Positions 353 to 63,640 of a stretch of 64,000 nt of DNA are shown here, in pieces (the stretch's first letter is position 1; the number at the start of each line of letters is the position of its first letter). The notes under the pieces are model-generated. The model saw nothing but the letters and a program-made list of their open reading frames with translations. It did no database searches and had not been told where the DNA came from. Source of the DNA: Salminus brasiliensis. Taxonomy: Eukaryota; Chordata; Actinopteri; Characiformes; Bryconidae. Both the position numbers and the translations under genes were made by a program. The stretch is from assembly GCF_030463535.1 (NCBI RefSeq), contig NC_132878.1, positions 21,131,925-21,195,924 on the forward strand, written 5' to 3'.

Positions 353-20250
<19,898 letters not shown>

Positions 20251-27700: not shown

Positions 27701-30700
27701 GAATGAGTGATTCTGGCAACAGCCAATGAGAGAGTTAAAAAAAAGGGAAAATGGACATGTATGCATGGTGATGAAGAAGCTGCTTGTTGAATACTGACAA
27801 ATGTGCGAGGGTCTCTGTATTGATAGCGCCTTTATAGTAACCAGAGCTTTACGATTTCAACTCCATGTGATTTGATTATGATTCCTCCAATTAAAGATTT
27901 AGCTTTGTTTGTATGGTGGGGGATGATGGTAGGATTTGACTTCTTCTTGTGTAAAACTCTGGCTGGTCAAGTAGTGTGTGCGCCCTCCTGACTAACAAGC
28001 AAGAGATTCTGTAAAAGACTGACATTATGATTCGCTGTTTTTGAAACTCTCACGCCTGGCTTAAGGTTTTGTGGCATCCATGTGCAATCAGACTGGAAAC
28101 CCACACCACTGAGACTGGTAACATACTAACTATCCCATCTCTGAAATGACCAGCCCTCACCTTTGGTATACTTGCAGATGAAGTTGTTCTTGGTCTCGCA
28201 GTTGTCGTCATTCCACTGGAACATATAGAGGCCTCCGAGGCCTGGAGGAGCTGAGGGCTGGTGGTACATCACCACACACACCTCGTAGCCACACGAGGGC
28301 TCGTCCCAATGCCAGTTCCTGCACATACACACATAATAAATACACTATTACACATTCTGTTATTTTACTCCATCCATTTGTTGAACGGTTCTTTTAAGAC
28401 CATAGACCACAGCTTTTCTTGTTTTGAAGAGAAGAGCCATTTCTCAATGGTTCTTTGATTTGTAGTCTTTAAAACTAAATAAAATAATTACTAAGAAACA
28501 CTTTCTTAAGGATGTACATTATTATATTATCTGACTCTTTTAGTTAAAAATAGTACAAGTAAAATTCAGATGTCTATCAAATGGATTAAATGGACAAATT
28601 AATGAATCATTTAAATGCCTAAATGGCTCTTTTCCTGGTAAAATGGCTCCTCATATTCATTCTGAGCCAAAAGTATTTTATAGGGCTTTTTTTAATGATT
28701 TGTGGTTATATACAGAACCATGAAGAACCTAAAGAACCTAAAGAACACTGTAACCTGGCAACCAGCCATTTAAGCATGCAAATTGTTATTTCGTATAGCA
28801 CCAAAAAGGGTTCCTTTATTGTACTGCTTTATAGATAGCACAGTGTAAACTTGTTCTGAGCTGGATAATATAAGAACAGGAACACTGACACTGCAATTAA
28901 GTGCACTGCATGAACTAGAGATCCCAACTGGGATATTTTTAATAATTATTTTAGCAGATTTTTTGCCAGACCTGAAATTAGAACTGCTGCCATCCATCCA
29001 GTAGTACTGAGACGTGCAGTCTCCACTGGTCTCTTCATAGTTTGGCTCTCTGCGAAGCCCGATCCAGAAGTCTCCATCGGAAGCTTTCAGCTCCTGAATA
29101 AAGCCCTCGATCAGTCTCTGTTCAGCAGATGACTCGATGCTGAGGAGCTCTCCTCCATCGCTCCTGCAGGCTCGGTTGGCCTCCTCGAAGTTCACCTTGC
29201 GCCGACTGTCCTGGAAGTAGGCGATTTTATAGCAGGGCTTGTCGGTGCCGCGCTTGCAGATGCGCTGGCCTTTCAAGGAATGGGAAAGAGGTGTGTGCTT
29301 GTTATGTTTAGGCATCTTAAAGGTCTGATCTGTTGTGTAATAAGCTCTCTAGACAAAAGAATGGGTGGCATGCATCATGCGACACTCTCTAACATTCTCT
29401 AACACTTGGTTACGCATGCCTTCCCTCACAGCATTACACCAGTCCATAACACTCCCACATTACAGGATGATAACTGAATGAAATGCTGAAATAGGCACAG
29501 CACAAACTAAGGTGTAATTCTTGTCTAGCAGGACTGGTTTAATAACAGGGCCTTTATTAAGCCATGGAGATTGCTAACCAAGTATTGGAGAAGAAATTAT
29601 AGTTTAATTGGTGTGATAATGATGATGATGTACACATGCACACACATAGACCTGCAAAAAGGTGAATAACACATAAGTTTGCAACATATGTTCAGAGTGT
29701 TGCCAACATGTCTTTGTGGGGTCTACATGGGTTGAATGTGGCCCAGTTCATTTATTTAATTATCAGTAAACACATTAAGGTCATGCCCTCATTTTCAATA
29801 GTGCTGACTTCCATAATACATAAAAGAGATATATGGGCTAAAGCTGGACGTCCCAGAAAATCTGTATACTATGTTGGAGATGTTGGATTCAGAAAGGCTT
29901 CATTACACAGTGATTTTGTGTTTCTGGCTCAAAGCTTGTTCAGTATTATCTCTCTGCAGTATTTAGATATTTGAATAATTTGTATGATCATCTGATAAAA
30001 ATGATGATATTTAACATACCTTATGTTTCTGGCTGTCTGACTTCAGCATAGTGTAAACGTATGTTTAAATTTTTCCGACTTGGATAACTTTCTGATATCC
30101 AAGCCACATTCCAGTCACAAGGCCACTTCTCTAACCTTCAAACCATGGCTGCCCCACAAAAGCTTAAGCTAGCCTTGGCTCAGTTTGTTCTGGTAGGTGC
30201 CCCTCACTGCCTGGCATCACTGACTCAGCAGCTCAGCCTTGAGATACAGTCCCAGTCAAGATCATGCTTCTTTTCCAAAGAAGCTTGTTTCCTCCTCAGC
30301 TCAGTGGAGGGGTGGTTAAGAAAGCAGATTCTGCTGTGGTTTTTAATGGCATCACTCAAAGAGACACATTTTAAAGAACTACTCCCCATCCCTCCTTGAC
30401 ATCTGTGGTTTTTCGGCTTTTTACAGGCCTGTTGGTTAGTAATGGAAGAACATAAATCATCCTTGATGTCACTCAGCAAACAAGATTCAATAATAACTAA
30501 GCAAAGCCATACATTTTAATGTATTTTCTGCTCATTCAATTATGAAGTAGGATTTGCTTTAGTGTTAAAAGCATTTGTGAGTAACACAGAACAGCCTACT
30601 CTGGTATATTTAGCAGGTGTCTCTATAAATGTTCTAATCTGATATTTAACAATAAGCAATTTCATAAGTACTATTGATGCACCATTACGGAAAGCGTGGG

Positions 30701-34656: not shown

Positions 34657-37600
34657 TCATAGTAGCGCTTGGACTTCCTTTATGTCCTGATCCATAACCT
34701 CAGGAGGAGTCCTTATAGAAAACCTAGAAAAACACATTATAATAGAGCGCTGTCAGCAAGCAGACATGAACTGGATAAATATTAGGTACAGCAGAAGACT
34801 TTTTAATCTAGTTAAAAAGATCCAGGTAGAATGTGTTTCCAGGTAGGTTATCTTCTCATAGAAGGTTTACATGCACTTAATAATCCGATAACTGCTAAAA
34901 AAACAGATTTTGTCAGCAATCCGATCAATGTGTTGCATATATATCTTTTTCTTTTTTTATGTTTTTTATTTAGTTTTATGGTTTCTAATAGTATGCAATG
35001 CTGCCCTTCTTATAACCTGCTCCATATTGTTGCAAAGTCTGAGGAAAGCTTTTATATTAAATAAGCATTGGTTCTTGGACGCAGCATATGTGTCCCATCA
35101 TACCGTGTGCATTTGTAGTAAGGACTGGTAGCAGAGAATGGTACTTAATGAATGTTAAGACACAGAATGGCAAGAGAACTTACAAGATCTCTTGTAAAAC
35201 TTTGTGACATGATGAAGGATGCCATGGGCTCTGATAAGATGACTGTATGCCCCTGCTGTACCATTGGTAATGCTAGTGGCAATAGCACTATACAAACATG
35301 CATGCGCAGACTGAGGAAAGGGTAAGGGTATACAGGTGCTGAGAAATCTGATTACTGAGCTGAAATCTTTCTCTCTTTATCAGATTTCTTAATCTGTTTT
35401 CTAGGCCTTATTCCAATCTAAGACATCAGAGTATTTTTACAAGACCACTTGAATAATTATATAACTGCAGAAATACGATTGTGATCGAATTATTAAGTGC
35501 ATGTAAACACACTCAGCGTTTACGTGAGTGGGCCTATGTTATAACTTCATTTTGTGTCTCGCAAACTTTGCACCCACTTTCAAGCCATCTCCTCCCGTTC
35601 TTCCATCACTCACCACACCAACGGGGGGGCCCTGGCTTCACGTGCTGACCACAGGAAATACCTGCAACACCCCCGCTCCATCTCAGGGTGTGGTCTACAC
35701 TAGGAAATGTTAGATTATATCCCACTGTCTGTAATTTGGAACTGTCTGATTGGGAGAAGGGAGCAAATCCTGTATGTACCCCACCATCCCCCAAACCCAG
35801 GGCTCCATGGACATCATTTTTAATGATACACACACATTCTAAAAAAAAATATCAGCAGTAAAGTGCTGCACTTTTCGTCCTCACCTCAGCAGCCAAATAA
35901 TACTCGCAGAGTAGCCATCCTTAGTGATTTAGCAAAAGTGTTACAGAGGGAAGCAGGTCATACATTAATCAGCCAAAGGAAATTTTTATAAAGTAAGACA
36001 GTAAATCAATGGACTTGAACTGTCCTGACTGAACTACAGCTTGTTAAAGTCCCCAGGGCTCGGCAACTGAGATAAACTCTTATGCAGAGTCAAGATCAGA
36101 CACTTCCGATCAATATTCAAGTTTAAATCAATTTTTCATCTGACAACACCCCATTAATCACCAATTTACAAGAGGCTAGCTGGCAGCCCCCAAAAAATGC
36201 AGCTGATTCAGCAGCACAAAACGCTCTGGTCTTCTCTTACCTTACTGATATACGCACACAAACACATATCCCTTTCCCCCCTACCTGTAGAGTTGGAGCA
36301 ATTCCTCTACCAAGAATTAAAAGGGAGTAGCCTGTTATTTGTTTTCCCTTCTTTTCAATTAGAAGTGATTTACAGGAGCAGCCTCAGCAAAACAGCTTAC
36401 CCTCCCACTTTCTCTAGCAGTAAATTCCCAGTCAGGATAGGGTTACTGCCTCTGCATCTACACAATCAATGCAGGGCTCTATCACCCACCATGCCCCTTT
36501 TATCATAAGCCATACAAAGCATCATTGCTCTGCTACTGTGTCCCTAAAGGAATTAACGCTTATAGGTTTAAACTGTCTCTGGTACCTGTCGGTTAGGTCG
36601 GGCTTTCTTGGCCTGTGCGGAAAGGATATCATCTCTTTCTGTGGAGAAGAAAGAATAGTAAACAGTTCACAATCATGCATAAACATGATGCACAGGAAGC
36701 CTTTGTGGAATGTACAGTCCTTTAGAAAAATGTAATAAGCATAAATCTAGAAGTTAGTTGACAGAATTTGTTGCTGGTCAGTGAGGTTATTGATATGTTG
36801 GTTAGAAGAACAGTTAGAAGAGCACAGGTCGGGTTGCTGACTTCTGTGAACTCCAGTCACCGTATGGATTTGTTCAGTTCCACCAGCTGATCACCTGATT
36901 TACTTTAAGGAAGGACTGAATAGATAAACCAGGTGTGGAACAGGAATTGAATATACTGGCCTTCTTCAGGAAGAGCACCAGAAATGTGAGCTAACACACT
37001 CACACCTTGAGTTACAGTAAGTTGTGAGGTGGGACCTCCATAGATTACATTAGTAAGCCTTGGACGCTTATGACTTTCATAACATTTACTTTCATTCAGG
37101 AAGCCCCAGATGATGCCCCATCATCTTCCACAAGATGATGCCACGCAGATATTAGCATTAGGCAAAAGTGCCTTTCCACAAGGGGCCGATGAGTTAAAGC
37201 AACATTAGATGAGCTTTGGTATTTCTTGCTCCTGAGCTTCCCCTACAGTCGGGAAGTACAATTCATGCTTTGAGACACTCCAAAAGAACACACTTTACAT
37301 ATGCATTTCCAGACAAGCTGAGTGATACAGAATCATCACTGAAAGTGGAAGAAGAGATTTTACAGCATTTTATACAAATATTCCTTGGTTTACACAGCGT
37401 TACGCAGTTCTCATTAGAGTTGACCTGCCTTCTTCACCAAAGTCACATAGTGCAGTTACCAGCACTCCAAGCCTGGAGTGGGACTGCTAGAGACACTATG
37501 GTTCTTATTACAGGACAGTGAAGCGTCACAATGATTTTGAAGCTGTTGTAAGGTAAAATGTGACACAGTATTGTTTTAAATATGTGGATTTGGAGCAGTT

Positions 37601-40600
37601 CTGTGATTTTCTTTGCTACATAACACACATCAGGATTACTTATATGTTAGCTAAGTACGGATTCTGTCTGAAAGAAATTGTTCTGTTAAATCAGAGTAAT
37701 GAAACAGTGGGACTAATGTTTAGGGCATTTTCATGTCCATGTGTTGAATTTTCCACAGCATCACACAAACAATATCAATTAGCTTAATGTTTGGCTTTGT
37801 TAGTTCATGTTTGTTATAATGGCACAGAGAGAATATTACATAAATTGTTATTAACAGGTTAGTAACAGTGGACATAATGGCTGAAATGGCTATGTTTTTA
37901 CTTTAGTCCTTCATTCTGCTTTATTCTGCTTATTCTGTTTTTCTCTGCTTCCCTAACAACACCTTTCATTCATGGTAAAAGCCCCGCAATGCACAGCCCC
38001 TCTTGAGTAAGTAAGTAAGCACAAAAAATCAAACAGTGACTATGATGGTCTGACTAAATATTACTGGTAGGATACTCAGCAGGCGGAGGATAAAGCCCCA
38101 GCAATCTCTAATCATCACCCTTTTCCCCATAGAGACATGAAAGCCCAGAGGGGGGATGTGTTCCAGCCCACGCCACTCCTCCTCTCAGTGGGGTAGCCAG
38201 TTTCAGAAATGCTGAGGCTTTGAGGAAAAAAGTGCTGAGGAGAGAGAGAGAGCACTCTAATGGATGGGAGAGAAATAAAACACTTGGCTGTCTAGAAGAG
38301 TCCTCTTTTGCCCTGTCCAAATCCAAGTAGGCAGTAGCTAGAGTATTCATGCTCGGAGCTAGACAGAGATGAACCAGATATATGCAATATGGTTTATCAA
38401 TTAATTTGGGTACCTAAATACTTACCCTAATTCGATCTTCTCTCTGCTTCTTTAAGAGCACCATGATCTCATCTCGTTTTCTCGCCTTGAGAAAAAAGAT
38501 ATTGACAATGAAGTAACATGCTGGTACAAATTCCCTTTTTCTTTTTACAAGAAATATTTTTTCATTATTTCAACAAGGGTAGTAAAAGCAGGAAAAAACT
38601 ACTTAAGAACATGAGGAACAAAGGCTGAGAGGAACCAATACTAAAAAAAAAACGCAACCTAAGAACATGCAGAAGAAACACTGAGAACAACCAAGACTAA
38701 AGAAAGGTGAATGAGGATGAAAAGCTGAGGGAAACTATGACTTAAAAGGAAAGACTTTCAAAAAGAATGAGGACAAAAATCTGAGAGAAACCAAGACTCA
38801 AAAAGTAAAGCTCCCAAAGAAACTGAGGACAGAAATCTGAGAGAAACCAAGACTCAAAAGGAAAAGCTCCCAAAGAGAATGAGGAGGAAATCTGAGAGAA
38901 ACTAAGACTCGAAGGGAAAGGCTTCTAAAGAGAATGAGGAGGAAATCTGAGAGGAACCAAGACTCGAAGGGAAAGGCTTCTAAAGAGAATGAGGAGGAAA
39001 TCTGAGAGGAACCAAGACTCCAAAGGAAAGGCTCCCTAAGAGAATGAGGAGGAAAGGCTCGAAAGGAAAGGCTCCCTAAGAGAATGAGGACAGAAATCTG
39101 CGAGGAACTAAGACTCAAAAGGAAAAGCTCCCAAAGAGAATAAGGACGAAAAGCTAAGAGGAACCGAGACTTAAAATAAAAAAGATTTCTAACAGACAAG
39201 AAAGAAAAGCAGCTAGGATTAAGAAGTAAAATAGGTTAATTATGCAATCCTATTGTGAATATGACTGTGGCATGTTAAGTGTGATATAGCAGTTGCATTG
39301 GGAAGATAATTGATATCATGGGGCATCACCATTAAATTACAGATATTAAGTTTTAACGGGAATTCATGCAGGAATTGACATTAGATGAGATGCAGTAATT
39401 TTCATGTAGCTCAAATTAAAACAAGATTACTAGATGACTGTTGTCTAAGCCACCTGTACATTGGCCCTGTGATGCTAAGAAGGCAGCAGTCAGCTTGCGG
39501 TGGCAGGCAACAGCTGCAACTGCTAAACAAGCCTCATAACTCTGATTTAACACACCCACTTTCTGGCTACATGGCTGGCTGGAGTTTAATGTCATTTGAT
39601 TGATTCCACTGCGAATATGGCCTCTGTACCCATTTATCAAGCAGACATGATTTCACAGCAGGTTAATCAGTTACAGTATTGTAACGCGGTGTCGGATTTG
39701 ATTATTATCTCCAGCTATAAACATTATTCATGCTACACGCTAATAAAGTAGTCATAAAGTCAAATCAGAAGGAGTTTCCCTCACCAAAGAAACATATGTA
39801 AATTCCATTTAACTGCATAATGGCCAAACTGCATTATCCACAATACATGAACATCACTGTGTATGCTCCCAAGTCTTAATTCTTCATGCTCTAATTCTAG
39901 ATGCTGAATGAAAATAATGCACAATTGACTTTGCATCCAGCATTAAGTGAGTCTCTGTGATGGAAAGGGCTCTTTTTCCTAATAAAACCAGCCATTTCTC
40001 TCTAGATCTCTACTTTGGAGGCCTTGGAAAGAAGGTTAATTAGTTAAGAGGAGTCGTATGAAACAAATTTGGTCTCTAGAGGGCCATCTATCCTGGGGCT
40101 TCCATGTTGATTGCTCTCAGTGGGCCAGTGGAGAAATGAGAAGGCTGTGGATTTACTCTTGTCTAAATGCAAGCCAAGCTGAAAATGACAGTAAGTAAGT
40201 AACTTAGCAATGGGTCAGTGGTGATGCACCACATTGGCAAGTTCGTGAAATTTGGTCGCTACTGAGTTTTGCCATGCTCAGGTTTAGCTAAGTCCTTGAC
40301 AGTACCTGAATCCTTAATGTCCTAAAGTCCTTAAAAGAGTTTCTGTCAGTGAATCATTCCTAATAATGTAATGTGAACTCAATGAACGCAAGGCTCATTC
40401 TGTTTCTGTAAAACAGGCATTTGCATGGATGTGACTTGCACTGTAAATGTAAATGGACTGGCTGATGAAAGAGCATGGACTTGAAGTCAAACTGGAATTT
40501 AGAAAAGCATATGATGTGAATGAACAACTGAATGTCACTGAAAAGTATAGACTGCAGGTCACATTTCAGTACTCAGACTACACATACTACACCCTTACCT

Positions 40601-43600: not shown

Positions 43601-46028
43601 CTTGGATAAATTTTGGAAGCTTAATTTCACTCTCTGGGTTTCACTGTGTGTCAGGCATGCTGAGCCTTTCTGTGCTTTCACCAGCAGTTAAGTAATTACA
43701 GCAGTATAAAACAGACACATTGTTATGCATACCCTTTTTTCATATTTGAAGATTTAGAGAAGTGATGGAGGGCCACAGCTTATTGCACAAAAGAGCACCA
43801 TCATACATCACAGGCCACTTGAGCACGGAATTGAACCGTCCTCCATTTGAGAGGACAAGTCATCTCCCAACGCTATCAATACTTGGCCTGCAAAGCTAGT
43901 TTGAAGCATTTCCTCTCGGATTTCTCATTAAGCCTATGTCCTGCGTTTTGTGCAAGTCATCATTATGACAGTTACGACACAGACTTTTCAATTTCGTTTG
44001 GAGCAGCCATAATATCTCTACGCTTATACAAGGACGCTGCAGTTTAGAGAGAGATCATTCCTCACCAATTCCATATATCTCTTCTTCTCATCCTGCATCT
44101 GTCTCTGATAAGCTTTCTGTAGGACCTCTTCATTTTCTGGTGGGGGAACAAGCAGTCAGATTGGGTGAATGAAAGGAAACGAACTGAAATGTAGAATTAA
44201 ACATGCCGATGTTACCTACTGGAGTCTGCTGGCGGCTTGGGACCATTATTGGTGGCTAGGAAGAAGATAAAGCAGACTTAAAATTATAATCCACAATTAT
44301 AAATGCAATTATGAAAGTAGTTATCAGACATACCTTTAATACAAAGACTTGCACAGTCTGTTCCAGATAGTTTTTGTTTTTATGAACGAATATTATCTTA
44401 AAGCAAATTTGCAAGCTGAAATTCAGACTCTTTAGACGAGTATTTGGTAGAAGCACGTTCTGCTGCAGTTAGACTGCTGGGTCATGTTTCTATCAGCTTA
44501 GCTCACTGTTTGGAGTGATACTGCTCATTCTTTCAGGTAGGTTTGCTCCACGTTATTCAGGTTGGTTGAACTCTCGATTTACTCTGATTTGGGTCACTGT
44601 ATTGAATCACTCTTGTGTTGCTTTGACCTGGTATGTAGGATCACGTTTCTCCCAAGCTTTAGGTTTGTAGTTGACTTAAGAGTTGCCTTGCTTTTTAGCA
44701 AAGATGCCCAGTTGCCTCTGAGATAAAGCATCCTGGGATGGTGTTTATTAAGGCATGAGCAGTGATATTTTTGTGCCATACAACATTTGCATTTAAGGCA
44801 TTTAGCAGATGCTCGTATCCAGAGCGACTTACAAAAGTGCTTCACTGTTTACTCAGAAAAATATCCTTAGCTAGTTTGTATAGACTAGGATCCAAAAGAT
44901 ATGTCTGAGATTAGATACTATTCATTTAGAATTTTGGATTAAATGCTTAAATTCTGCCACATTGAACACACACTCAAGCCTTAGGTAGGTCACACTAACG
45001 GTTTCTGGTAAACTCCAGATGTTTTTTTTTTTTTTTTTAGGAATGGCTTTTTTCTAGCGACCCTCCCTTACAGGCCGGTTTTAACACTGTCAAAAGGATA
45101 AGTTCCTTGAGGAACTTTTAGAGGTTCTCAATTTGAATATTTTCCTTACAGTGCTTATTGGTCTTTATTTTTACGGATTACCTTCAGAATCACAGTCTGA
45201 CACTAAGGTCTTATTTTGTCCAAACAAAGCTGAACTTTTGAGTGATTAGAAGGATTTATGTCCAACAGTAAGCCAACTTTACATTTATGGAATGTGTTAG
45301 TGGCATCCTATCCAGAGTGACTTACATTTGAATAATGTTATTTAGGTAAGTGAACGTAGTATTAGGAGTCTTGCTTAAAGAGTTGTACAGGTGTAGTGGA
45401 GTGTGCTTGCCTGGCGGGGGAACTGAACCCTAGGGGCAGTGGTTGCTCATAGGTTAGCATGCCGGGTTGTGGGTTCGATTCCCTGGCTCGACAATCTGTT
45501 TGTTTTGTATAGGAACACTAGAAATTCAGATTAATGGCAAATGAATATCTGCTGCACATGTTGTTTAGCAGCCTGTTTTCTAAAAATCAATATTAGAAAT
45601 CATCTTGAGCTTTTCCTCCTGTCAGCTGGGTCCAGAATCGAGCTCAGTTGGACTCGCAGAACTGCATAAATGCCCACAGAGCACTTTCCTAATTGTACAC
45701 ATCACACACACACACGCTTGTATTACTGACTTTGTGTGTATTTGGGCTGACCTCTACTTTTTAAAGAATTTTAAATAGCTACAAGCTGCACTTGACGTGA
45801 ACCACTCCCACTAAAACGTGACTTACGTTGCAGGGACTTGGCTACTTTCAGGCGCTGCCTGATGTCTACAGAGACCAGGCTGGACTCCACTGGTGGCTGG
45901 AGGGACAACGAATTCCAGAACACCTTTGCGTGAGCTACGTCTTCCTGCGACGACCCTTCAAACACTGTGAAATACTTCTCAAAGTCCGACAGGTTACCCG
46001 CAGCGCTGATATCCTCCATTGCATCCAT
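34657..46028 (-). CDS. hoatz: hoatz: cilia/flagella-associated protein (C11orf88)
   Basis: Small protein needed for motile cilia and sperm flagella in mouse; biochemical role unknown. Exons in transcript order: 46028 to about 45783-45827, 44255-44216, 44136-44066, 38485-38426, 36638-36586, 34711-34657. The N-terminus matches remembered human HOATZ ([16 protein letters not shown] versus FAGSSEQDANLAKQFW). So do the coiled basic middle ([19 protein letters not shown] versus KTREEILQLLRKQREERI) and [10 protein letters not shown] versus KELISLPYKP. The tail is [11 protein letters not shown]. Predicted 171-174 residues, close to the human length. The end of exon 1 is uncertain: its best donor at 45827|45826 puts exons 2-3 out of frame, while weak donors after 45792 or 45783 keep frame. 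Confidence 0.87.
36587..38425. repeat. hoatz intron 4 with repeat copy B
   Basis: 37197-37420 is the second copy of the repeat at 30866 (AAAGCAACATTAGATGAG, TTGCTCCTGAGCTTCCCCTA, GAGTGATACAGAATCATCAC). Otherwise AT-rich intron; no gene seen. Confidence 0.55.
38765..39175. repeat. 55-56 bp purine-rich minisatellite in hoatz intron 3
   Basis: The landmark AATCTGAGAG recurs at about 38778, 38834, 38889, 38944 and 38999, giving 55-56 bp units. Each unit reads roughly AAACCAAGACTC then AAAGGAAAGGCTCC then AAAGAGAATGAGGA. The plus strand is strongly purine-rich, and the complementary frame is open for 133 codons only because of the repeat. Confidence 0.9.
41595..41622 (+). repeat. (TTATC)n tract
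   Basis: Three TTATC units after a T-run, the same tail word that ends the LINE at 63.6 kb. Possibly the 3' tail of a heavily decayed LINE, but no body was recognised. The surrounding hoatz intron 3 (39180-44065) has no gene. Confidence 0.4.
44785..45335. mobile_element. Two SINE/MITE core fragments in hoatz intron 1
   Basis: TTTAGCAGATGCTCGTATCC-AGAGCGACTTAC at about 44801-44833, and a diverged copy (TATCCAGAGTGACTTACATT) near 45309-45328. This core is widespread in teleost short repeats. A T-run is at about 45020-45039. Confidence 0.55.
45395..45500 (+). mobile_element. tRNA-derived SINE head
   Basis: GGGGCAGTGGTTGCTCATAG (degenerate A box) followed by GGGTTGTGGGTTCGATTCC (B box, near 45465-45483). 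It matches the head of the minus-strand element at 50.6-50.8 kb. Not a functional tRNA. Confidence 0.65.
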
Positions 46029-46200
46029 GATCTTCTAGGCCGCAGTGGCGGCGCAGACTGGTTGTCAGGCAAGCGTTGTTAGCGGCGGTAGTCAAGGCGA
46101 CGGGACTCTTTGGCGTCGTGGTAGTCAAGGAGACGGGACGCGTTGCTGTGCTACTGCACGCCACAGTACAGACTGAAAGTGGAGCGTGGTGTTATGTTAT
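46029..46200 (-). promoter_or_regulatory. hoatz: hoatz promoter with X-box-like sites
   Basis: CpG-containing patch directly upstream of the hoatz ATG. GTAGTCAAGGCGACGGGAC (46088-46106) and GTAGTCAAGGAGACGGGAC (46121-46139) are 18/19 identical and 33 bp apart. Each contains an RFX X-box-like inverted half-site pair (GTAGTC-AA-GGNGAC). A third candidate, GTTGTC-A-GGCAAG, is at 46061-46073. RFX factors drive motile-cilium genes, which fits the gene; binding is inferred. Confidence 0.5.
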
Positions 46201-46279
46201 TATGAGTGTTTTCAGAAACCAGAGCCGACAGGACACCTTTATTTTATTGAAAGATTATTTGGTTATTTATTGATACGTT

Positions 46280-47070
46280 ATTTAATAATGAAAGTAGGGT
46301 TATGCTAAATGTGCAATTTTACCAATTAGATCATTTACTGCTGTAATTATTTATTTAATTAATACATCTAATTATAAAACAAAACAAAATTTATTAAAAG
46401 TGATAGATTATATTTGACAGGACATCCAAATTGACCAGGGTTGGGAAAAGTTCAGAGAAACTTTAGTTAAAGTTAACAGGTCAGGACTTTAATTTTAAAA
46501 TGTTAATTTCTTACCATTTTAAAAATAAGAAATTATGGAGCAAAAAATAATTTTTGATTAAAATATATGTAAAAACTAGTTTTAAATATTTAAATATATA
46601 AAAGTGAAAATGCTTATTCAGTCACCCTAACAAATAAGAATAATTTAGCATAGTTGTGGTAGTTATTTTACACTGAAGATTATTTTGTTGGAATAATAAT
46701 GTAAAAGTAGATTTGAAGACTGAACCAGTGCTTTTAAGGTATAAATTAAAAAGTACTATTAAGTACATTAATGAAGTACAAGCCTTAATACAATCAGGCT
46801 AACTATGTGATCTGAGATGTTAATAAGACCAAAAAGCAGTGATCACACACTATCAGCAGATTTAGACCAAAAATAAATCATTCATTCAGTCATCATTCAT
46901 ACTATTACTACATACTACTACATTACTCAGACACTACAGAATTACTGAATGTTAGGTGTCCTTTTATTTAAGAAGAAAATTGCCATTCTTTACATGTTTT
47001 CTTTAAGAAATAACACAACACAAGTTAATAAAGCACAGTAAATGTCCATGTGTTGAGAAGCACTGTTTTG
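46280..47070. other. AT-rich spacer between hoatz and mir-34c
   Basis: No ORF, repeat family or RNA structure recognised. It would be transcribed if the mir-34 primary transcript reads towards hoatz. Confidence 0.5.
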
Positions 47071-47074
47071 CACC

Positions 47075-47155
47075 TGCTGTTCAGCTGGTAGTGAGGTTAG
47101 TGATTACTGTAGCTATATTGTAATCAACTAACTACACTGCCAGACGACCAAACAG
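47075..47155 (-). ncRNA. mir34c: mir-34c precursor
   Basis: MicroRNA of the miR-34/449 family, which promotes multiciliated-cell differentiation and acts downstream of p53. On the minus strand the 5' arm is the complement of 47142-47120, with the family seed GGCAGUG and the mature tail GUUAGUUGAUUAC. The 3' arm, complement of about 47105-47084, reads AAUCACUAACCUCAC. The arms pair (UGAUUAC with GUAAUCA, GUUAG with CUAAC, most of GGCAGUG with CACUACC). The base before the seed is U rather than the A I recall in zebrafish miR-34c. It lies about 240 nt downstream of mir-34b. Confidence 0.92.
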
Positions 47156-47327
47156 TATAATGTCTCGAAGAGTCGTCCAGAAGGCATACGCCATTGCAGT
47201 AAACCAACACGATCCTATGTAGTATTTTCCTCTGGTCAACATACTGCGGTGATAGTGTGGCGACGCTGGTTTCCAAATCCAATGTGAGTTTCGGACAGCA
47301 GCCTGTGATGATCTGTGCTTGCTTGCA

Positions 47328-47407
47328 GGCCGTTGTGTTGGCAGTATGGTTAGTGATTGTAGAGTCTATGAAACAATCAGCTAACAACACTGCCTACAAA
47401 CCAACCC
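47328..47407 (-). ncRNA. mir34b: mir-34b precursor
   Basis: The mature 5' arm is the complement of 47396-47374 (UAGGCAGUGUUGUUAGCUGA + UUG, 23 nt), identical to zebrafish miR-34b as I remember it. The 3' arm, complement of 47359-47340, reads CAAUCACUAACCAUACUGCC. The arms pair through GAUUG/CAAUC, GUUAG/CUAAC and GGCAGU/ACUGCC around a roughly 14-nt loop. The position between hoatz and btg4 matches the human MIR34B/C locus. It targets cell-cycle and CP110-type transcripts in other vertebrates (known of the family). Confidence 0.96.
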
Positions 47408-49145
47408 CAACAGGTTACCCAGGTCGCTACTTAAGAGCAGCAGCAGAAGAAAGAACAAGCTGATTGAGATTAGGAGACTAAAGTGTAGATCACGAAACAG
47501 GCTAAGAGTGAATACACTAAATATATGCAGAAATACAGAATACACACTGTGTAGGCAAACTGAAGAAGGCACTAAAACAGATGACAAATAAGAACTCTTC
47601 ACAAGTCTGCAGTGTTATTCCATAATTCACACCTTATTAACTTGAAATCCGAGCTGGAATCTGGTGTCTGGTTCTTTTGAGATGACTGAGGTACATTAAG
47701 ACATACTAACTGCAAGTCAGAAACATTAGGTATCTTCATGAGGCTCAAATTGATTTGTAAAACTGAACTGTTTGTATTTTCTGTAGTAAACACCAAGTAC
47801 ATAGAACTCCTTCCCACCCACCTGTGGAAGATAGGTAACGGCACATAAAACAGCGTATCCCTCCTTTTCCAATAAAGTCCTGTCTGAAGGAATGCTACCT
47901 TCTCCTCTATATCGAGTTTGTGCATTTCTCGTTGTTATGGTCCTAGTGACGTCACACCAGCAGGTGGGGTTGCAGGTAAACAGATGGGTGGATCAGAACT
48001 CTCTTCTTGGCCGACAACTAAGATGGATACGGTGGGGAGCTCACTTCCAGAAAAAGGTATAGATCCTTCCAGGAGCAGGGTTAAAGACCACTGACTGGCC
48101 TATACAGTGCTCTACATCGAACGTTTAGGGGCACCTAGCTTTTCAAAATGTATAATACACGCATGTTTACTTCATCAGTTTTCAATAACTTTATTTGTAA
48201 CATTTCTATACAATATACTAATTTTCAACACACAGACTATTGCTTCAGTTGTATCGTATAGTTGATAGTTTTGGTAAACTATGTATCTTATTCATGTGAA
48301 AGTTATCTACACACCTCACCTGATGCTTTTTTCCTGATAGCGCTCAAATGTAAACCACCTTGGAAAAGATGATCTAGTACATGCTTTCAGAGTCAAGAAA
48401 ATTCAACTGCAAAATGATTAATTGGGCAAAAGCTAGACTTAATAACATGGAAGACATTTGATAAACATGGAGCTTCAGAATTTCAATGCTTCTGCTAAAA
48501 AAGAAGGGTTGGCCACAATGATTCCTGGACACTAATTAAGTCTTATACCAAATGTCGCAGTTTGCAGCACACTCTCGTCATCTTGATCGTTTGGTGTAGG
48601 AGAGGTCAGAAGAGCGGTCTTTACTCAACAGGACTCATCTCTCGTCTTGAAGTTGCGTTAAATTTAACATGTTTAATAATATCACAAGCTTTCCGTCTTG
48701 GCTCATGCAAACTGTGATGTGGACATTGTGAATAACCAATAGGAAGCAGCAAAGCGGCTACAGGAACATCTCTGGCGGGTAGGTAAGACATGGGCTGCAT
48801 CCAATTTGAGTACTACACGCAAATGCTATAAGGCATATACTCTATACTAATCGTCGTAGTGTGGGTTTGGCAGGTTAGTTCACAAAATATTAGCATGCTA
48901 ACTGTTTCTATTAACAGGAGGTGAAGTGTTGCTATGCCGACAAACATTTTGACTCCAGGGAGGCCTTGTAAAATGAATAATAGGGAAATAATAATATAAA
49001 ATTAATACAAATCTCTACTAGTCTCTAAAAACCTCAAATGAAATGTAGTGACAGTCTTGCAAATAGTGACCATGCATGTGTGATTCTCAGCCTTTGCAAA
49101 ATCATGGGACTAAAAACTGTCTTTGTAAGTAAGGACAAATAGTTT
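47407..49145. other. mir-34b/c primary-transcript intron or spacer
   Basis: Probably the intron between the host first exon (49814) and mir-34b. It contains a palindromic CRE (TGACGTCA, 47947-47954) between a 108-codon minus ORF and a plus-strand ATG at 48023 that runs 11 codons to a GT. Neither ORF is recognised. 48110-48420 looks repeat-derived but the family is unclear. Confidence 0.35.
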
Positions 49146-49370
49146 TTAGATGTGGGACAGGACTATTAGCGCAACAGCTAACACCACTACCTGCCACTGA
49201 GCTACCACACTATGTTGGAGACTGGGGTTCGATTCCCAGTCTGGGTGGCGTCCTTGGGCAAGACTCCTAACATTATGTTGGCCCACCTCTGTAATACAAA
49301 CAACCATGTAAGTCGCTCTGGATAAGAGCGTCAACTAAATGACATAAATGTCAATGTAAATACCTAGTCT
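49146..49370 (+). mobile_element. tRNA-derived SINE
   Basis: Head with ATTAGCGCAACAGCTAACAC-like A box and GGGGTTCGATTCCCAG B box (about 49225-49239). The tail is GTAAGTCGCTCTGGATAAGAGCGTC-type, the common fish SINE 3' region. Not a tRNA gene: the acceptor stem does not close. Confidence 0.75.
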
Positions 49371-49483
49371 TTCCATTCACTTCCAACAACAACATTTACT
49401 ATGATGGCAAAATTACTTGTTCTGATTGGTCTAAAGTGATGCAATCTTGTATAATTACATCTGGGACAACCATTTCAGCTACC

Positions 49484-49487
<4 letters not shown>

Positions 49488-49520
<33 letters not shown>

Positions 49521-49545
49521 GTGTGTGTGTGTGTGTGTGTATTAA
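49488..49545. repeat. (TA)n-(GT)n compound microsatellite
   Basis: About 14 TA units followed by about 10 GT units, with further TA-rich words to 49572. Confidence 0.9.
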
Positions 49546-49813
49546 CTAATTTAACAATATATATGTATATATAAAATTGTATTCACAAATTTGGATTGTG
49601 GTTAGAGCGGCTTTTAATGTCTTTACATTTGCACTCAGGTCATTCATAAATTCAGATAATCAGATATATTTAGCTAGATAATCTGAATCAGACTAAACCT
49701 TTAGGTTATAACAGCACACCGTAGCTTCATTTACAGCAAATCTGAGACAGAACTAATGCACAACAATGACAACTACACAACTGCACAACGAAGGACAAAT
49801 GTGAACTACTCAC

Positions 49814-50250
49814 CATGTTTTGGACTCACTGAAGGGAAAGCTGTGGAGAAGTAGACTAGTTAGCCCAGCAGGAGACTTTCTTCCTCGCCTTCACTGAATG
49901 TCTTCAGCCGCTGCCACTCAGATTTGACCACACAAACTCGAAGCCCGGTGAGTGACTCGTACTTTACCAAGAACACTGAAGGGCTTTTATAAGAGGGAGC
50001 CGCCGCTGCTCTTTCAAATTCAGCGCCATGAGAGGCGCCAGCAGTCAGGGGCGGGAACGGCGGCGCCATCAGCGCGCTGACCGTTAGTGCAGTGTCAGTT
50101 TGTTCCCGCCCGTATTCCGTCACGTCCCGCCCCTGCAGAGCGATGATTGGCGGGTGATCGGTTTTCTGCGCTAGGATTGGCTAGAGTACTACAAGCAACC
50201 AGCAAAAGCTGAACCACTATCTTATGCTATAGCCTGTCGGAAAACCGGTG
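49814..50250 (-). promoter_or_regulatory. Probable pri-mir-34b/c promoter and first exon
   Basis: The minus strand has a strong donor CATG|GTGAGT with the exon end at 49814 and a CpG-rich region at 49990-50190. This region holds E2F-type words GGCGGGAA (50050-50057) and TTCCCGCC (50103-50110), GC boxes and two ATTGG (inverted CCAAT) boxes at 50146-50150 and 50176-50180. It lies 2.4 kb upstream of mir-34b on the same strand, with no protein gene downstream before hoatz, so it is best read as the host-transcript start. The 87-codon ORF inside is probably leader sequence. Confidence 0.55.
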
Positions 50251-50559
50251 GGAGGAAAGTGTGGCGGGAGCTACGTGATGGTTTACAGATATTTTGTGGG
50301 GAGGGGGGTCTCACTGAAAGAATGCATTTATTTTAGCATTAGAATTTAATTTAGGAATATATTAATTTTTCTCCCAACCATGATCATATTTTTTATTGTT
50401 TAAAAATGACTGACACAGTTCAACCCAGTCATTGTGATCAGAGACTACACTGTTGATTTAATTAATTTTAGGTAATTTGATGGACACACAAATGTATAAA
50501 AGCCTTTACTGTGTGATGATCTGTGTTTGGTTAGTAAAACTGAGCAGGGTTTTACATAA

Positions 50560-50832
50560 AAGTAAAGTAAAGGTGCACATATTTGTCCCTGTACAGCAAA
50601 ATGTGTCCTCCATATTCAACCCATCTGTGGTAATGAACACACACACACACACACTAGTGAACTAGGGGCAGTGAGTACGCACACACCCAGAGCGGTGGGC
50701 AGCCAACTCCAGCACCCGGGGAGCAGAGAGGGTAAAGGGCCTTGCTCAAGGGCCCAACAGTGACAGCTTGCCAACCCACAACCCTGTTATCGATAGCCTG
50801 GCGCTCTAACCGCTGAGCCACCACTGCCCCTA
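50560..50832 (-). mobile_element. tRNA-derived SINE, minus strand
   Basis: On the minus strand the head reads GGGGCAGTGGTGGCTCAGCG, then GTTAGAGC (A box, 50803-50820) and GGGTTGTGGGTTGGC (degenerate B box, about 50770-50785). A conserved body with CCGGGTGCTGGAG follows, and then a (GT)n run near 50635-50653. Confidence 0.75.
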
Positions 50833-51589
50833 GGTGCTCAAGGGTCCAACATAAGTCTTTCAGACTTTAGTTACACTTGAATGTGTATAAAGTATACAGA
50901 ATAACACAGAGTTTGTTAGAGGATTTCACTCTAGACGAAGATGTGTAGAAACCTGAATCTTCTCTTTTGGTTCATTTAGTTCCCACTTCCCTTTTTTAAG
51001 GGTTTCATTGTATTCTGGTTGGTTCTGATTTGAACTGGTTGCCTGTTGTAGTTTACCCCCCCCCCCCCTTAAAGCAACTAGCAAACATCAGTTCAGATGT
51101 TCAGTAGATGCTAGATGTACTAAGAAGTGCCACTGCAGTTTTACCTGGTACTTGTAGCGCTTTGGACCTAATACTGTTTTATGCTAAGTAGTATTTCAAT
51201 TGAGTCATTATTTCAGTAAAGTGACTATAGAGAGTACTTTTGCTTAAACACTGCGTTAATCTGACCTGTTACATAGAGGTTAAGGGCATATACTACACAT
51301 TTCCTGAATCATAAACAATTCTGTTGTGCTTTGTGGCAAACCGAAATATTCCAAACTTGATCGATTTTGCAGAACTTGCTAAAGAGTTGAGGGGTAAATT
51401 CATGCTAGCCACCACTGCTTTTATTATCTGACTATAATAAAGGCCATAATAACCATAAACTGAAAAACAAACCATCCAAACCAAATGCAAAGTGTTGCAT
51501 GATGACTATAAATAATACTAAGACTTCCATAAATAATGACATGACATATATTGACATATATTGCACCTACAGTTTACAATAAATTGGAT

Positions 51590-51779: not shown

Positions 51780-53340
51780 TTTACCTAATCAGTCTTTCAT
51801 TTAAAAAGAATCATCAGATGAGTTGCTGGTGAAACTGATTAAATCCTTACAGTGTCAGGAGTTCACAGAGAAGTCAGCAGCCAGACCTATGAAGTGTTTT
51901 CTTTTTAAACTTAAATAAAGTTCTTTTATGAAACATATTTATTTGAGTTGAATAAACACAGTTTAATTGCTTGTTACCACATGAAGTCATATTTTTTATG
52001 TTGAACAGATTAACTTTTTACTGTGTACATTTTAAAATTTACTGACCAATAAAGCATTCTCACTACTGGATTTATGTTTATATATGTAATGGTAAATAAT
52101 GTTTACAATATTTTTTATGTGAGAAAAAAGACTTTTCCTTATTATCTGTTACCTATATGGGTCTACGATCTTCTGAACATATTTACGACTTAAGCATTAA
52201 GCCCTGAGTAAAGCTACTGGTTAATGATCTCCAACATTTCTGAGCAGAATGACCATCTTACCTGTGTCCTTGTGACTCAGGGCTGGAGGATTAAGGTAAA
52301 CGTCACTCGGGGACCGTTTAACTTGCCATTGTTGGGCTAGTTCAGACAGAAGGAAGAAACAAAAAAGCTAAAGGACTCCTTAGATACGTAGTAACCCAGC
52401 CATCGAGAACATTCCTTTATGTCCAAGATGATCTTGTTGTTTCTGTTGGCAGGGAGTGTGCTGGACATGTTGATTATGGACAAAAGACTTGCTGGACCAG
52501 GTTACTAGAGAAACCATTTACTAAATGTTTCATGCCTCCACTGAAGACATGTCCAGACTTGTCCTAGGAGCGGAACATTTACCATTTCACAGCTTTACTA
52601 AAATTCCTACAACTTTTCCTACTTTTGTTTTACTTTACTTTTTACTTTACAGTATAGCTTTATTTAAATTAATATATGCTCTTTTTACAACACAACTTAA
52701 TTAATTGACTTAGAAGTAATTTAGACCCCATGTCCATTTTAATAGGCATCAAATTACAATATTCATGGTTTCGTTACAAGCATAAAGTCAAGGCATCTGG
52801 TCCACCTGTGATCACCTGCTCATTACAATTCTTGTGATTTTCAGTTGTACATTTGCTCAGACATGTTTTTTTTTTTTTTTTTTTGCTGATTGCTGTCAAG
52901 CTCCACACAGGGCCTCTTCCCAGCATGCTTTATAGCTTAGCCCCGTAAAACGAACAATTTACAGTTATCTATCTGTCCCAAAGGAAAGCAATATTCAAGT
53001 TAGTCTTTTTTCCTCCTAGACGTGGTTAAGTCCTGTTTGAGACCAGTGTGGAACTAAAGCAATTTTCTCCTGTTTCTGAAATTCAACTCATGAGAAACAA
53101 TCAATGGGTCTCCTAACTTTGATCAGAATTATGTCTCACAGGTGGCTTCATCTCTTTTTGGTCTGATTGACCTCACCACAGTCTCAGCTAAATACGATTT
53201 ACATAAGACAAGCGTAAGATCTAATTTTTTTTATAGATCTCAGATCTTTCAGCGGTCTGTCAGAGCAGAAGAGAGCTCATGTTTTTCTCATTTGTGTCCA
53301 AAACCCCTCACAGTTATGTTGATAGGTTTTATGAGAAAGA
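51780..53340. other. AT-rich spacer
   Basis: No gene recognised. A T-run lies at about 52867-52885. Confidence 0.5.
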
Positions 53341-55224: not shown

Positions 55225-55438
55225 CCCTTGGCCTCTTTAAAAAGCAGCTTCCTGTGCTTTGTTGGATACTAAGTACATGCTTGTTTGTGGGCTGTGGTTT
55301 TGAGCTTGTTTCTGCAAGTGCTTTTAAGAGCAAATTTGTTTGTGTTTTGTGGAAGATCCTGATTTTTATCCTGGTTTTAAGACTTTTAGATTTCAATAAG
55401 TGAGCTGTAGTTTGTACTAGTGTGTTACGCTCTGAAAA
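55225..55438 (+). promoter_or_regulatory. btg4: btg4 proximal promoter and 5' UTR
   Basis: A TATA-like CTCTTTAAAAAGC at about 55233-55245 lies about 200 bp upstream of the ATG, in DNA that is not CpG-rich. This differs from the CpG promoters of sik2 and mir-34b/c and suits a gene expressed in a restricted tissue. Speculative. Confidence 0.3.
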
Positions 55439-57597
55439 ATGAAAGAGGAGATTGCAGCCACAGCTTTCTTTGTGGTAAGACTAGCAAAGAAACATGGAAA
55501 ACTAGACCGCTCACATAGAGAGAAGTTTGCGGTGGCTTTCACATCAGTTTTGTTTGAGAACTACAAAGGCCACTGGTACCCTGAGAACCCATGCAAGGGA
55601 CAGGCTTTTAGGTGAGGCCTTAAAATGTCCAAAAGAAGATGCTGCAGAGGTTACTTTTGGTCTTAATGTGTTGGGTTTGCCTCCCTTCAGGTGTCTGAGG
55701 ATGAACAGATCCCAAGTTAGGGACCCAACAATTGACCGTGCTTGCAAAAGGAGTGGTATCAACTATGATGACCTGGGTTTGCCAAAAGAGATCAGCATTT
55801 GGGTAGATCCAGGAGAGGTGTCGTGCCGGTAATGTACTTTGAGAGCACATATTCAATATCTTTTTTTTTATTATTTATTTATTTTTATTTTTTTTATTAA
55901 AGGTGTAGTTAATTGCAAAATTAGTTGCACAAATTAGAAAATGTTAATCAGCCAACAAATGATTTGGCTTATTTCCTTTGTAACTGCTCCCATTAGCTTA
56001 AAGTGGGCCTGTCTATGTACAAAATAATTCATTTAAAGATGCTTGTATTTAAGCATATAAGATCTTTTCATGTGTTCTGCATAATCCCAGTGGTAATACT
56101 GAAGTTCTTCAATTATGTTTGACTACATGCTTCCCTGCTTTGCTAAACTGCCTTTGAACTTGTAGCCTAGACTTGCCATTAAATGAAAGATTAAATTTTA
56201 CTGAAATGTGTAATGCCTAAAGTTTCTTAAGTTATGATCAGGGTTTGGATGTAATGGGGTTATTTTATTAACAGTTTATTTGGCATGTTGCTTTTGGTTT
56301 ATCTAGGAGAACCAAGTAGAGTCTAGCATACTCAGTTTTAAACTGAATCTTTAAAAGGACTGCTTGGTGGTATCAATAGCACTGGGATCAGCAATCACAG
56401 GGTTACTGGGCTCTCCTGAGGGATGGAACAGTTTCCTGTGAATAGTCTCTTTAAGTAGCTTGGCCTCTGTGTTCTACTTGGTCTTAAGTTAGGCATAAAA
56501 CACTTCCATGTTTTTCCACTTTTGCTGCTGCAAGTTAAATTAGGAATGGCAAGGAATAGTTGCTACTTTTTATTGACTTTCCTAACGACCTGCAAATTCT
56601 CATCAGAATCACTTGTGGTGTTTAAAATGGTTAAATTAGGCTTTCAGGGCTAATGTCATGGCTTGTGTGCTTTTGGGTTGCCTGACAATTCCAGAACCTA
56701 CCTGATGGGTTGCATATTGGTTCCCTTTGGCACTGTCATAAGGTAGAGGGCACATGTATGAACTCTTAAAATATGTAGCCTTTTCTGAACGCCTTTATGT
56801 AAGCTGAAAAGTGGCTGCCCCCCACCCCCCCATGGCTTGTGACTGCGTACTTGCTGTTGATGGTAGCATTATTTCAAATGTCTGCAAATGGCTAATGCAC
56901 TGATCAGTATTCAGCCATTCTTAGTGCTTGGACTACTTTCCTGGGTTTCAGCAATGTTGGGAGTGCCGTTCTGTTCAATTTGGAGCTGTGCATTTATGAG
57001 CCTTGACCCAGGTCTCTTGTTCTGCAGGTATGGTGAGAAGAACACTCCATTTTGTGTGACTCTTCTGGAGGGGGAGAAGGGTGACAGTGAGTTCTCACGC
57101 AGGATTAACAATGCTGTGGAACGGGCTTCTTCAGACTACCACTCTGGGACATCCTCTGATGAGGAGAGCTCCAACAGCAGCATGATTAGCAGCAGTAGCA
57201 GCAGCACAGTGTCAGTTCCAGAGCCCAAGTGCATCCCCACTGTGTCCAACCCAAACAGTGTCTACCAGGTATGTTTAAGCATATAATATAAAATGTTATT
57301 AGGAATCCAGTTCGTCATTCACTAATGCAAATTGAACTTGATTAGCAGTGTTAAGGTGTTACACTTCTGTGTTCTGTCCACCCCTCCCCATTTCAGTTCA
57401 GTGAGTTTGGACCACCTGCACCCATGCAGTCCTGGGCTCCCTATCCCAAAAGGAAGCCCTATGCAGGGAATGGCTACCAGCAGCATTCGAGTGGACCATA
57501 TCCTCCACACAACAGCTTCAAGAATTACAGGCCCTCTTATGCTTTCTCTGGTCCGCGGGTGGACAAATACCATTGGGTCAGCAAGAATCGATCATAG
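55439..57597 (+). CDS. btg4: btg4: BTG/TOB-family maternal adaptor
   Basis: BTG4 links the CCR4-NOT deadenylase (via CNOT7/8) to maternal mRNAs, driving their clearance in oocytes and early embryos (known of the family). Exons: 55439-55611, 55691-55828, 57028-57268, 57397-57597. All phases join to 250 residues plus stop. The APRO domain spans about residues 1-115: MKEEIAATAFFVVRLAKKH, box A around WYPENPCKGQAFRCLRMN, box B LGLPKEISIWVDPGEVSCRY. A serine-rich linker (~150-175) follows, then a C-terminal basic/aromatic tail ending VDKYHWVSKNRS. Human BTG4 shares the GTSSDEES-like and VSNPNSVYQ segments. The ATG follows an A-rich context with no upstream in-frame ATG close by. Poly(A) signals AATAAA are at 57741-57746 and 57761-57766. 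It is divergent from hoatz, as in human. Confidence 0.96.
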
Positions 57598-61379: not shown

Positions 61380-62740
61380 GACATTGCAGAATCAAATGTA
61401 TAAAATATGCTTCTCTAGCACACCTGACAAAGTTGTTCTGGTGCCATTTGGGGCAGCGATAATCCACTGGGATGATTGTATCATCCAGGCATTTATCAAA
61501 ATCAGCAACTCCCCGGAATTCTCAAACTATTTCTGTTATAATGTTATTACGTCAGGTTGGTTTTATCTGTACCTGCAAAAAACTGTAGAACTGTTTCTCA
61601 GAGAAGCTATTATGAGGCTGAAGAACAAGAATATGACCCGAAATCAGTCAAACTTTACCAAAAACTGTGTGGATTATTATTAGGAGGAAATAATGCACTG
61701 GTGAGCTCATTAATCACACAGAGACATGTAGGTCAAGGAAGACCTCCACTACTGATTTCAGAACAATCTTGACTATAATAAGGAAAAGTCTTCAACTGTC
61801 TATCTGATTTCAGAAACAGCCTATAGGAGGTGGGTGTGTATGTGTCAGAGACTACTATCCACAGAAGACTTCATGGACAGAAATACAGGGGTTACACTGC
61901 AAGATGCAAACCGATAAACAGAATGACCAGATAACAGTACTTGAGACCCTGCACAGGTTTGGAAAAAGGCCTTTTGGACAGATGAGACCAAGATTAACCT
62001 GTATGAGAGGGATGGCAAGTGCCCACAATCCAGGTGTGTAGACAAAAAGAAATGGGCATGTTCCATCTCATCTGTAAAACATGCTTTGGGCATTTATGGT
62101 TGCTACAGGTACTGGCACACTGCGGAAGGCAGTAGCACAATGAATTCAAGCTCACTGGGTGGTGCTTCATCTGAAAGCAAGGTGAGTATTCATTGGAGGG
62201 GAGTTGTTTTACAAGCCAGTCACCTGATTTAAATCCAATTGAGCATGTGTTCCATATGCTGAAGGCGAAAACTTAAGGGAACAAGGCCCCAAAACCATCA
62301 GAAGCTGAAGATGGCTGCATTAGAGGCTTGGCAAAGCATCTCCAGAGAATATTCTCCACACCTGGTGATGTCTATCAATGGAAACCCATTCCATGAAGCT
62401 CTCTGCCCAGTGTTCTGGAGCTAATCTGAAGGCCACATGAAGTTTGGAGGCCTGTAGCCGCATCAGCATCTGCTGTCATTATACCACTGACAGTTGTCAG
62501 TGGAATATTTAGTAGCGAAGAAATTTCATGACTGGACTTGATGCACAGATGGCATCCTCTCACGCTACCACACTGGAATTCACTGAGCTCCTGAGAGCTA
62601 CCCATTCTTTCACAAATGTTTGTAGAAGCAGTCTGCATGCCTAGGGCTTGGTTTTATACACCTGTGGCCATGGAATTGATTGGAACACCTGAATTAAATG
62701 ATTTGGATGGATGAGTGAATACTTTTGGCAGTATAATGTT
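61380..62740 (+). mobile_element. Degenerate Tc1/mariner-like transposon
   Basis: The plus strand keeps scattered transposase words in several frames. These include AFWTDETKINLYE-like sequence at about 61968-62006, a SPDLNPIEH-like block near 62219-62250, and LKMAALEAWQSIS at about 62304-62342. It ends with GAATACTTTTGGCAGTATAATG (62718-62739), an end motif common in these elements. Many stops; inactive. Confidence 0.8.
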
Positions 62741-62754
62741 TGTCCCAAACGTTA

Positions 62755-63640
62755 GGTCCCAAACATCAGATAAACGCAGGAAAGCCCAAAGAACTGGTGG
62801 TGGATTTCCGCGGGTGCAGACACCCCCCTCCATCAGTGAACATCCAGGGTATGAACATCGAGAGCATGGACTCTTATAAATACCTGGTTGTACATCTGAA
62901 CAACAAACTGGACTGGTCAGTCAACACTGCTGCACTCTACAAGAAAGGCCAGAGTAGACTCCACCTGCTGAGGAGATTGAGGTCCTTTGGAGTGCAGGGA
63001 GCACTCCTGAGGACTTTCTTCGACACAGTGGTGGCATCTGCCATCTTTTATGGAGTGGTCTGCTGGGGCAGTAGCATCTCGACGGCAGATATGAAGAGAC
63101 TGAACAAACTCATGAAGAGGGCCGGCTCTGTCCTGGGATGCTTTTTAGACCCAGTGCAAGTGGTGGGAGACAGGAGGATGACAGCCAAGCTGGCATCCAT
63201 GCTGGTGAACGGCTCCCACCCCATGCATGAGACTCCGGCAGCACTGGGCAGCTCCTTTAGTGACAGACTGCTTCACCCCAAGTGTGTGAAGGAGCGGTAT
63301 CGCAGGTCCTTCCTTCCTGCTGCCGTCAGACTACACATCCTGCACTGCTCCCAGCGGACCACACACACACTTAACTACACACACATGTTCAGGGAACAGA
63401 GGTCCCACAATGTATAAATACTATGTGCAGTAACCCCCCCCCCCCCCCACATGTGCAATTAAGACTCATTTGCAATAAACTGTAAATAATATTGTTATTG
63501 CTTTTTTAATTCCTATTTATATTGTGTATATAGTGTAATTTATTTATCTACGAGTGTCTTGCTATCCCTTTCTGCTGTGACACTGAGAATTTCTCCATTG
63601 TGGGACTAATAAAGGATTATCTTATCTTATCTTATTATGG
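62755..63640 (+). mobile_element. 5'-truncated LINE (L2/CR1-like) with open RT C-terminus
   Basis: From about 62776 the plus frame is open to the stop at 63415-63417. It encodes the C-terminal part of a non-LTR reverse transcriptase: KELVVDFR, SYKYLVVHLNNKLDWSVNT, LHLLRRLRSFGVQGALL, SAIFYGVVCWGSS, RYRRSFLPAAVRL. The catalytic RT motifs lie upstream in a full element and are missing. The 3' UTR has a C-run (63435-63449) and ends in AATAAAGGATTATC + (TTATC)n at about 63609-63634, the tandem tail of such LINEs. It directly abuts the Tc1-like element. Confidence 0.85.

Follow-up and report, generated by a model that had tools for sequence, protein, structure and literature searches.

The genes for the microRNAs (miRNAs) mir-34b and mir-34c and the gene hoatz stand side by side on the minus strand of a 64,000-nucleotide stretch of the Salminus brasiliensis genome (contig NC_132878.1, positions 21,131,925 to 21,195,924). 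This whole stretch is referred to as the window, and positions are counted from its first letter. The miRNA pair and hoatz are probably two adjacent, separately transcribed units that are co-expressed through one ciliogenic programme, not parts of one transcript. The non-coding primary transcript of mir-34b/c (pri-mir-34b/c) would start in a CpG-rich stretch at 50 kb, probably shared with a head-to-head btg4, and its most likely end is in the AT-rich DNA that separates mir-34c from hoatz. The hoatz gene would start from its own CpG-rich promoter under X-boxes of the RFX type. Both units would be on in ciliated and flagellated cells, following the action of the same ciliogenic transcription programme on each. 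Shared open chromatin possibly helps, and hoatz would not be read from the miRNA transcript. The sequence itself gives the places of the genes, the hoatz model, the two CpG-rich stretches and the sites of motifs and poly(A) hexamers; promoter activity, RFX binding, the ends of transcripts and co-expression in this fish are inferred.

A first-pass annotation of the window had placed mir-34b, mir-34c and hoatz on the same strand within about 1.4 kb. This is borne out by the matches to Rfam family RF00456 and by the distance of 1,374 bp from the 5′ end of mir-34b to the ATG of hoatz, with 1,050 bp between mir-34c and the ATG. The features of the two units are as follows.

47332..47402, minus strand: mir-34b precursor (RF00456, 64.7 bits, E 1.7e-12; fold z -3.86)
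about 47396-47374, minus strand: predicted 5p arm of mir-34b
47079..47149, minus strand: mir-34c precursor (RF00456, 54.4 bits; fold z -3.19)
about 47142-47120, minus strand: predicted 5p arm of mir-34c
45827..46028, minus strand: hoatz coding exon 1, with the ATG at 46028 (donor at the 97.4 percentile)
44066..44136, minus strand: hoatz exon 2 (acceptor 99.0, donor 98.5 percentile; frame kept)
38426..38485, minus strand: hoatz exon 3 (acceptor 98.7, donor 99.7 percentile; frame kept)
36522..36638, minus strand: hoatz exon 4 with the stop codon (acceptor 99.9 percentile; frame kept to the stop)

Both hairpins exceed the gathering score of RF00456 (53.4 bits), mir-34c only just. When compared with dinucleotide shuffles, none of 200 folded as well as mir-34b and two of 200 as well as mir-34c. 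A scan of the whole genome (1.07 Gb, 103 contigs), in which 63 candidates were scored out of 202,285 at first look, placed three sites over the cut-off: the two hairpins and one on contig C14, presumably mir-34a. No match to mir-449 was found in this genome (57 candidates scored out of 179,072 at first look). The mir-34 DNA pattern gave no matches in the viral collection and two in bacterial genomes, which are taken as chance. The predicted 5p arm of miR-34c begins with a U and keeps the seed GGCAGUG; human miR-34c-5p begins with an A. The interval from mir-34b/c to hoatz exon 1 is flanked by 3′ elements of the UnaL2 long interspersed nuclear element (LINE), at 49295-49348 on the plus strand and 44845-44792 on the minus strand.

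The hoatz start at 46028, as given in the first-pass annotation, is correct, and the model has been extended to four coding exons by following splice sites and reading frame leftward from it. The percentiles given for splice sites come from an approximate consensus matrix. The joined product, ending at 36522, has 149 aa and matches Pfam PF17664 (HOATZ-like) with E 1.6e-42 and 145.4 bits, against a curated cut-off of 25 bits. When the genome was searched with this protein, all six candidates were scored and the three matches all fell within the window. Mouse Hoatz (C11orf88, 4833427G06Rik) is similar in its HOATZ-like domain, its length of 147 aa and its small exons (PMC7132099).

The ties of both the miR-34 family and HOATZ to motile cilia, also proposed at first pass, are in print as facts from other species. 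In the mouse, Hoatz expression is seen in lung, oviduct, cultured ependyma and testis, where it begins at postnatal day 15 and is mainly in spermatids; Hoatz is a candidate Foxj1-dependent gene in lung, and Hoatz-/- mice are infertile (PMC7132099). Neither miR-34 nor microRNA occurs in the main text of that paper. A role of zebrafish miR-34b in multiciliated cells has been described in a review (PMC11545745). By analogy with these species, a joint action of mir-34b/c and hoatz in cilia would be reasonable.

The miRNA side of the locus is made up of the following features.

49841..50320, no strand assigned: CpG-rich stretch, the predicted mir-34b/c promoter, probably bidirectional with btg4 (GC 0.52-0.615 and CpG observed/expected ratio (o/e) 0.67-1.08 in 200-bp windows)
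49985..49991, minus strand: TATAAAA box inside this stretch, directed to mir-34b
49814, minus strand: last base of the predicted pri-miRNA exon 1, with an ATG/GTGAGT donor (99.67 percentile of donors)
55439..55829, plus strand: two BTG-domain coding segments of btg4 with an intron between them (Pfam BTG, 2.7e-18 and 2.4e-14)
52545..52564, plus strand: perfect, spacer-free p53 response element of 20 bp, lying past the CpG-rich stretch on the way to btg4

A CpG-rich stretch near 50 kb and a strong splice donor at 49814 are thus present, as first annotated. Of the shared upstream promoter then proposed, the part that stands is the CpG-rich stretch upstream of the miRNAs. Its sharing with hoatz is not supported, as the stretch faces a BTG gene on its other side and a separate CpG-rich stretch with X-box-like sites lies at hoatz.

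The BTG gene, on the plus strand from 55439, is divergent from the miRNAs and lies beyond the CpG-rich stretch, as at the miR-34b/c-BTG4 locus; the name btg4 was assigned from published gene order. Its first exon was not found: the best plus-strand donor in 49990-51000 is 50247 (98.4 percentile), and the best acceptor in 55300-55450 reaches the 87.5 percentile. One p53 element was found against 0.01 expected, and one of 100 shuffles has one. Its placement is similar to that of the p53-responsive site held by intron 1 of human BTG4; in human cells, promoter reporters for BTG4 and for miR-34b/c were both active, indicating a bidirectional promoter (PMC7074044). It has been reported that miR-34b/c and btg4 are oppositely oriented, head-to-head, in zebrafish and human alike, that zebrafish miR-34b/c undergo p53-dependent induction, and that the zebrafish pri-miR-34b/c transcripts are polyadenylated (PMC11166285). 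Human miR-34b and miR-34c have been assigned to the host gene MIR34BHG on chromosome 11 (PMC11344589). Given the divergent BTG gene, the published bidirectional promoter and the p53 element, the best interpretation of the 50-kb stretch is as the putative counterpart of the known btg4/mir-34b/c promoter. The acceptors at 47821 and 48491, upstream of mir-34b and stronger than the best one before hoatz, would be part of the pri-miRNA. Two further loci in the genome (C5:40535904 and C16:16089088) encode a BTG domain whose split falls at roughly the profile position seen for the gene in the window; they are perhaps btg3-like or duplicates.

When compared with the miR-34b/c-BTG4 locus of human and zebrafish, the window shares the two mir-34 hairpins, the CpG-rich stretch, the divergent BTG-family gene and the p53 element on the btg4 side. 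No clear difference emerges, and the window appears to carry this locus in a further species. The proposal that the gene order is kept from fish to human is upheld by these papers for the miR-34b/c-BTG4 side; the hoatz side is stated in none of the excerpts consulted. The word hoatz has no occurrence in PMC11166285, and PMC7074044 was not searched for it. In the open-licence literature, no paper was found pairing miR-34b with C11orf88, miR-34c with 4833427G06Rik, or whole-word miR-34 with HOATZ, a set that does not cover all name pairs and whose whole-word query misses papers writing only miR-34b or miR-34c. A looser search gave no paper with both HOATZ and miR-34b among the matches listed. 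These negatives do not show that the adjacency of mir-34b/c and hoatz is unpublished, and the locus is taken as an instance of the known one, whose hoatz neighbour is perhaps unremarked.

The same evidence bears on a reading in which mir-34b/c and hoatz are plain neighbours, kept together by ancestral synteny that has no regulatory meaning, and mir-34b/c belong functionally with btg4 and p53. In its favour are the BTG gene with its divergent orientation, the perfect p53 element, and the human p53 site and zebrafish induction cited above. This reading is possible, if doubtful.

Separate transcription of hoatz is suggested by the signs of a promoter at its own 5′ end.

45761..46240, no strand assigned: CpG-rich stretch over the hoatz 5′ end, the predicted hoatz promoter (GC 0.505-0.575 and o/e 0.65-1.10 in 200-bp windows)
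46061-46073, 46088-46101 and 46121-46134, no strand assigned: three RFX X-box-like sites, 33-106 bp before the hoatz ATG

This stretch was overlooked at first pass. The CpG o/e of the whole window is 0.37, and the 480-bp CpG-rich stretches at the 5′ ends of hoatz and of the miRNA unit, both within the five longest of 18, are counted in favour of two units. The presence of a separate CpG-rich stretch at hoatz speaks against a 50-kb promoter that also serves this gene, an argument weakened by the number of such stretches in the window. At least three X-box-like sites appeared in 0.22% of 5,000 local 200-bp shuffles; three are observed here in 74 bp. The last two are held by a 26-bp direct repeat (46087-46145, 33-bp spacing, 88% alike), and these two copies are the only exact matches of its 18-bp core reported in the genome.

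Two promoters could also be driven by one ciliary enhancer within a shared chromatin domain, for example the hoatz X-box cluster or the FOX-like sites at 47.8-48.5 kb, a reading that overlaps with that of two co-expressed units. The X-box-like cluster lies about 1 kb from mir-34c, and four RTAAACA sites lie from 47786 to 48467. The excess of these sites, 44 where 32.7 are expected (a count equalled or exceeded in 2 of 100 shuffles), is a statistic of the whole window, not of a local cluster, and the miRNA promoter stretch is without an X-box-like site. A common enhancer is put forward only tentatively, as one of the less probable explanations.

Two features in the interval between mir-34c and hoatz concern the end of the miRNA transcript.

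46963..46968, minus strand: candidate end of pri-mir-34b/c, an AATAAA with GT-rich sequence after it, 111 nt beyond mir-34c
46238..46286, minus strand: clustered AATAAA/ATTAAA hexamers, immediately on the upstream side of the CpG-rich stretch of hoatz

On the minus strand, this interval contains nine AATAAA or ATTAAA hexamers against 3.4 in 1,000 shuffles (P 0.002); with the AT-rich core as the basis, the expectation is 4.0 (P 0.007). On the plus strand the count is what chance would give, five against 3.5 (P 0.26). At least nine hexamers are found in 26 of 2,518 overlapping window-strands of equal length. Judged by its sequence context, the hexamer at 46968 is a fair candidate for the end of pri-mir-34b/c. 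From mir-34c to hoatz, a single acceptor reaches the 96th percentile, namely 46172 at 96.3, while those of hoatz itself lie at 98.7-99.9. Splicing of 49814 into hoatz is disfavoured, as this best acceptor is of moderate strength.

Mouse data point the same way. The mouse miR-34b/c genes have been described as a single non-coding unit, the disruption of which alone leaves fertility unaffected (PMC4199480). As these mutants are fertile and Hoatz-/- mice are not, removal of the hairpins does not seem to remove Hoatz function in the mouse, a comparison that does not bear on the promoter. Read-through of the pri-miRNA into hoatz, a further proposal of the first-pass annotation, is disfavoured by the hexamer excess, the lack of a strong acceptor and, indirectly, the fertility of the mouse mutants. 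Production of mir-34b/c from an intron or the 5′ part of a long hoatz transcript begun at the 50-kb promoter would fit the common strand, the 1,050-bp distance, the strong donor at 49814, the moderate acceptor at 46172, and the placement of the related miR-449 within intron 2 of CDC20B, a cilia gene (PMC6220262), but with these three points and the CpG-rich stretch at hoatz against it, it is improbable.

Several observations weigh against the preferred reading of two separate, co-expressed units. The interval 49814-50313 is free of X-box-like sites, and this does not favour RFX input to both units. The CpG rule is permissive: 18 stretches pass it in 64 kb, five of them of at least 480 bp, so that a pass is weak evidence for a promoter. 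Three X-box-like sites within 80 bp occur somewhere in the window in 4.3% of 300 shuffles (P 0.043), their number is not enriched window-wide (46 against 43.8 expected), and two of the three at hoatz are copies from one local duplication. Because the motif was picked after the sequence had been seen, the cluster is suggestive only of a possible RFX input to hoatz. Hexamers accompanied by a downstream element, taken from the authors' own list, number three against 1.6 (P 0.20), and at least nine hexamers are found in six of 208 window-strands of like GC, which overlap and possibly include the target. The argument from mouse fertility is indirect, as deletion of the hairpins need not stop transcription.

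The arrangement is of a kind already known. Its precedent is the miR-449/CDC20B/MCIDAS/CCNO region, called the “multiciliary locus”, where miRNAs of the same seed family likewise lie beside protein genes of motile ciliogenesis; there miR-449 is inside an intron of CDC20B (PMC6220262), whereas here mir-34b/c stand upstream of the protein gene and have their own predicted promoter. It is unlikely that vertebrates have a second multiciliary locus in mir-34b/c and hoatz, with one cis-regulatory domain in which alleles removing mir-34b/c change Hoatz dosage in cis. If this were true, Hoatz would account for some of the sperm and brain defects of the miR-34b/c;miR-449 double mutants, as its knockout gives the same oligo-astheno-terato-zoospermia. 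In the mouse, too, mir-34b/c and Hoatz are presumably neighbours. Were cis control shared, miR-449/CDC20B would be joined by a second ciliary miRNA-protein locus in the vertebrate genome, and Hoatz expression would need to be checked in the miR-34b/c mutants already published. If it is not shared, a caution remains, provided that the mouse order is as we assume: mir-34b/c knockouts lie close to a gene the loss of which leads to the same class of male infertility. This closeness is not remarked upon in the excerpts of the cited papers.

Bacterial-style promoter and terminator scans of the window, which are inapplicable to an animal, gave nothing useful. Exons of two other gene types were found.

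28773-29348, minus strand: C-type lectin exon (E 1.5e-9)
28129-28344, minus strand: C-type lectin exon (E 0.0094, below the curated cut-off)
4588-4821, minus strand: MARK/SIK/AMPK-type kinase exon (over the cut-off)
8624-8848, minus strand: MARK/SIK/AMPK-type kinase exon (similarity to solved kinases)
18075-18329 and 2123-2467, minus strand: MARK/SIK/AMPK-type kinase exons (below the protein-kinase cut-off)

From the human gene order, the lectin and kinase genes are presumably layn and sik2. An open frame of 226 codons on the plus strand (62737-63414) matches ALKBH8_N over the cut-off (1.7e-6), and it may be the last part of a reverse transcriptase of the LINE type.

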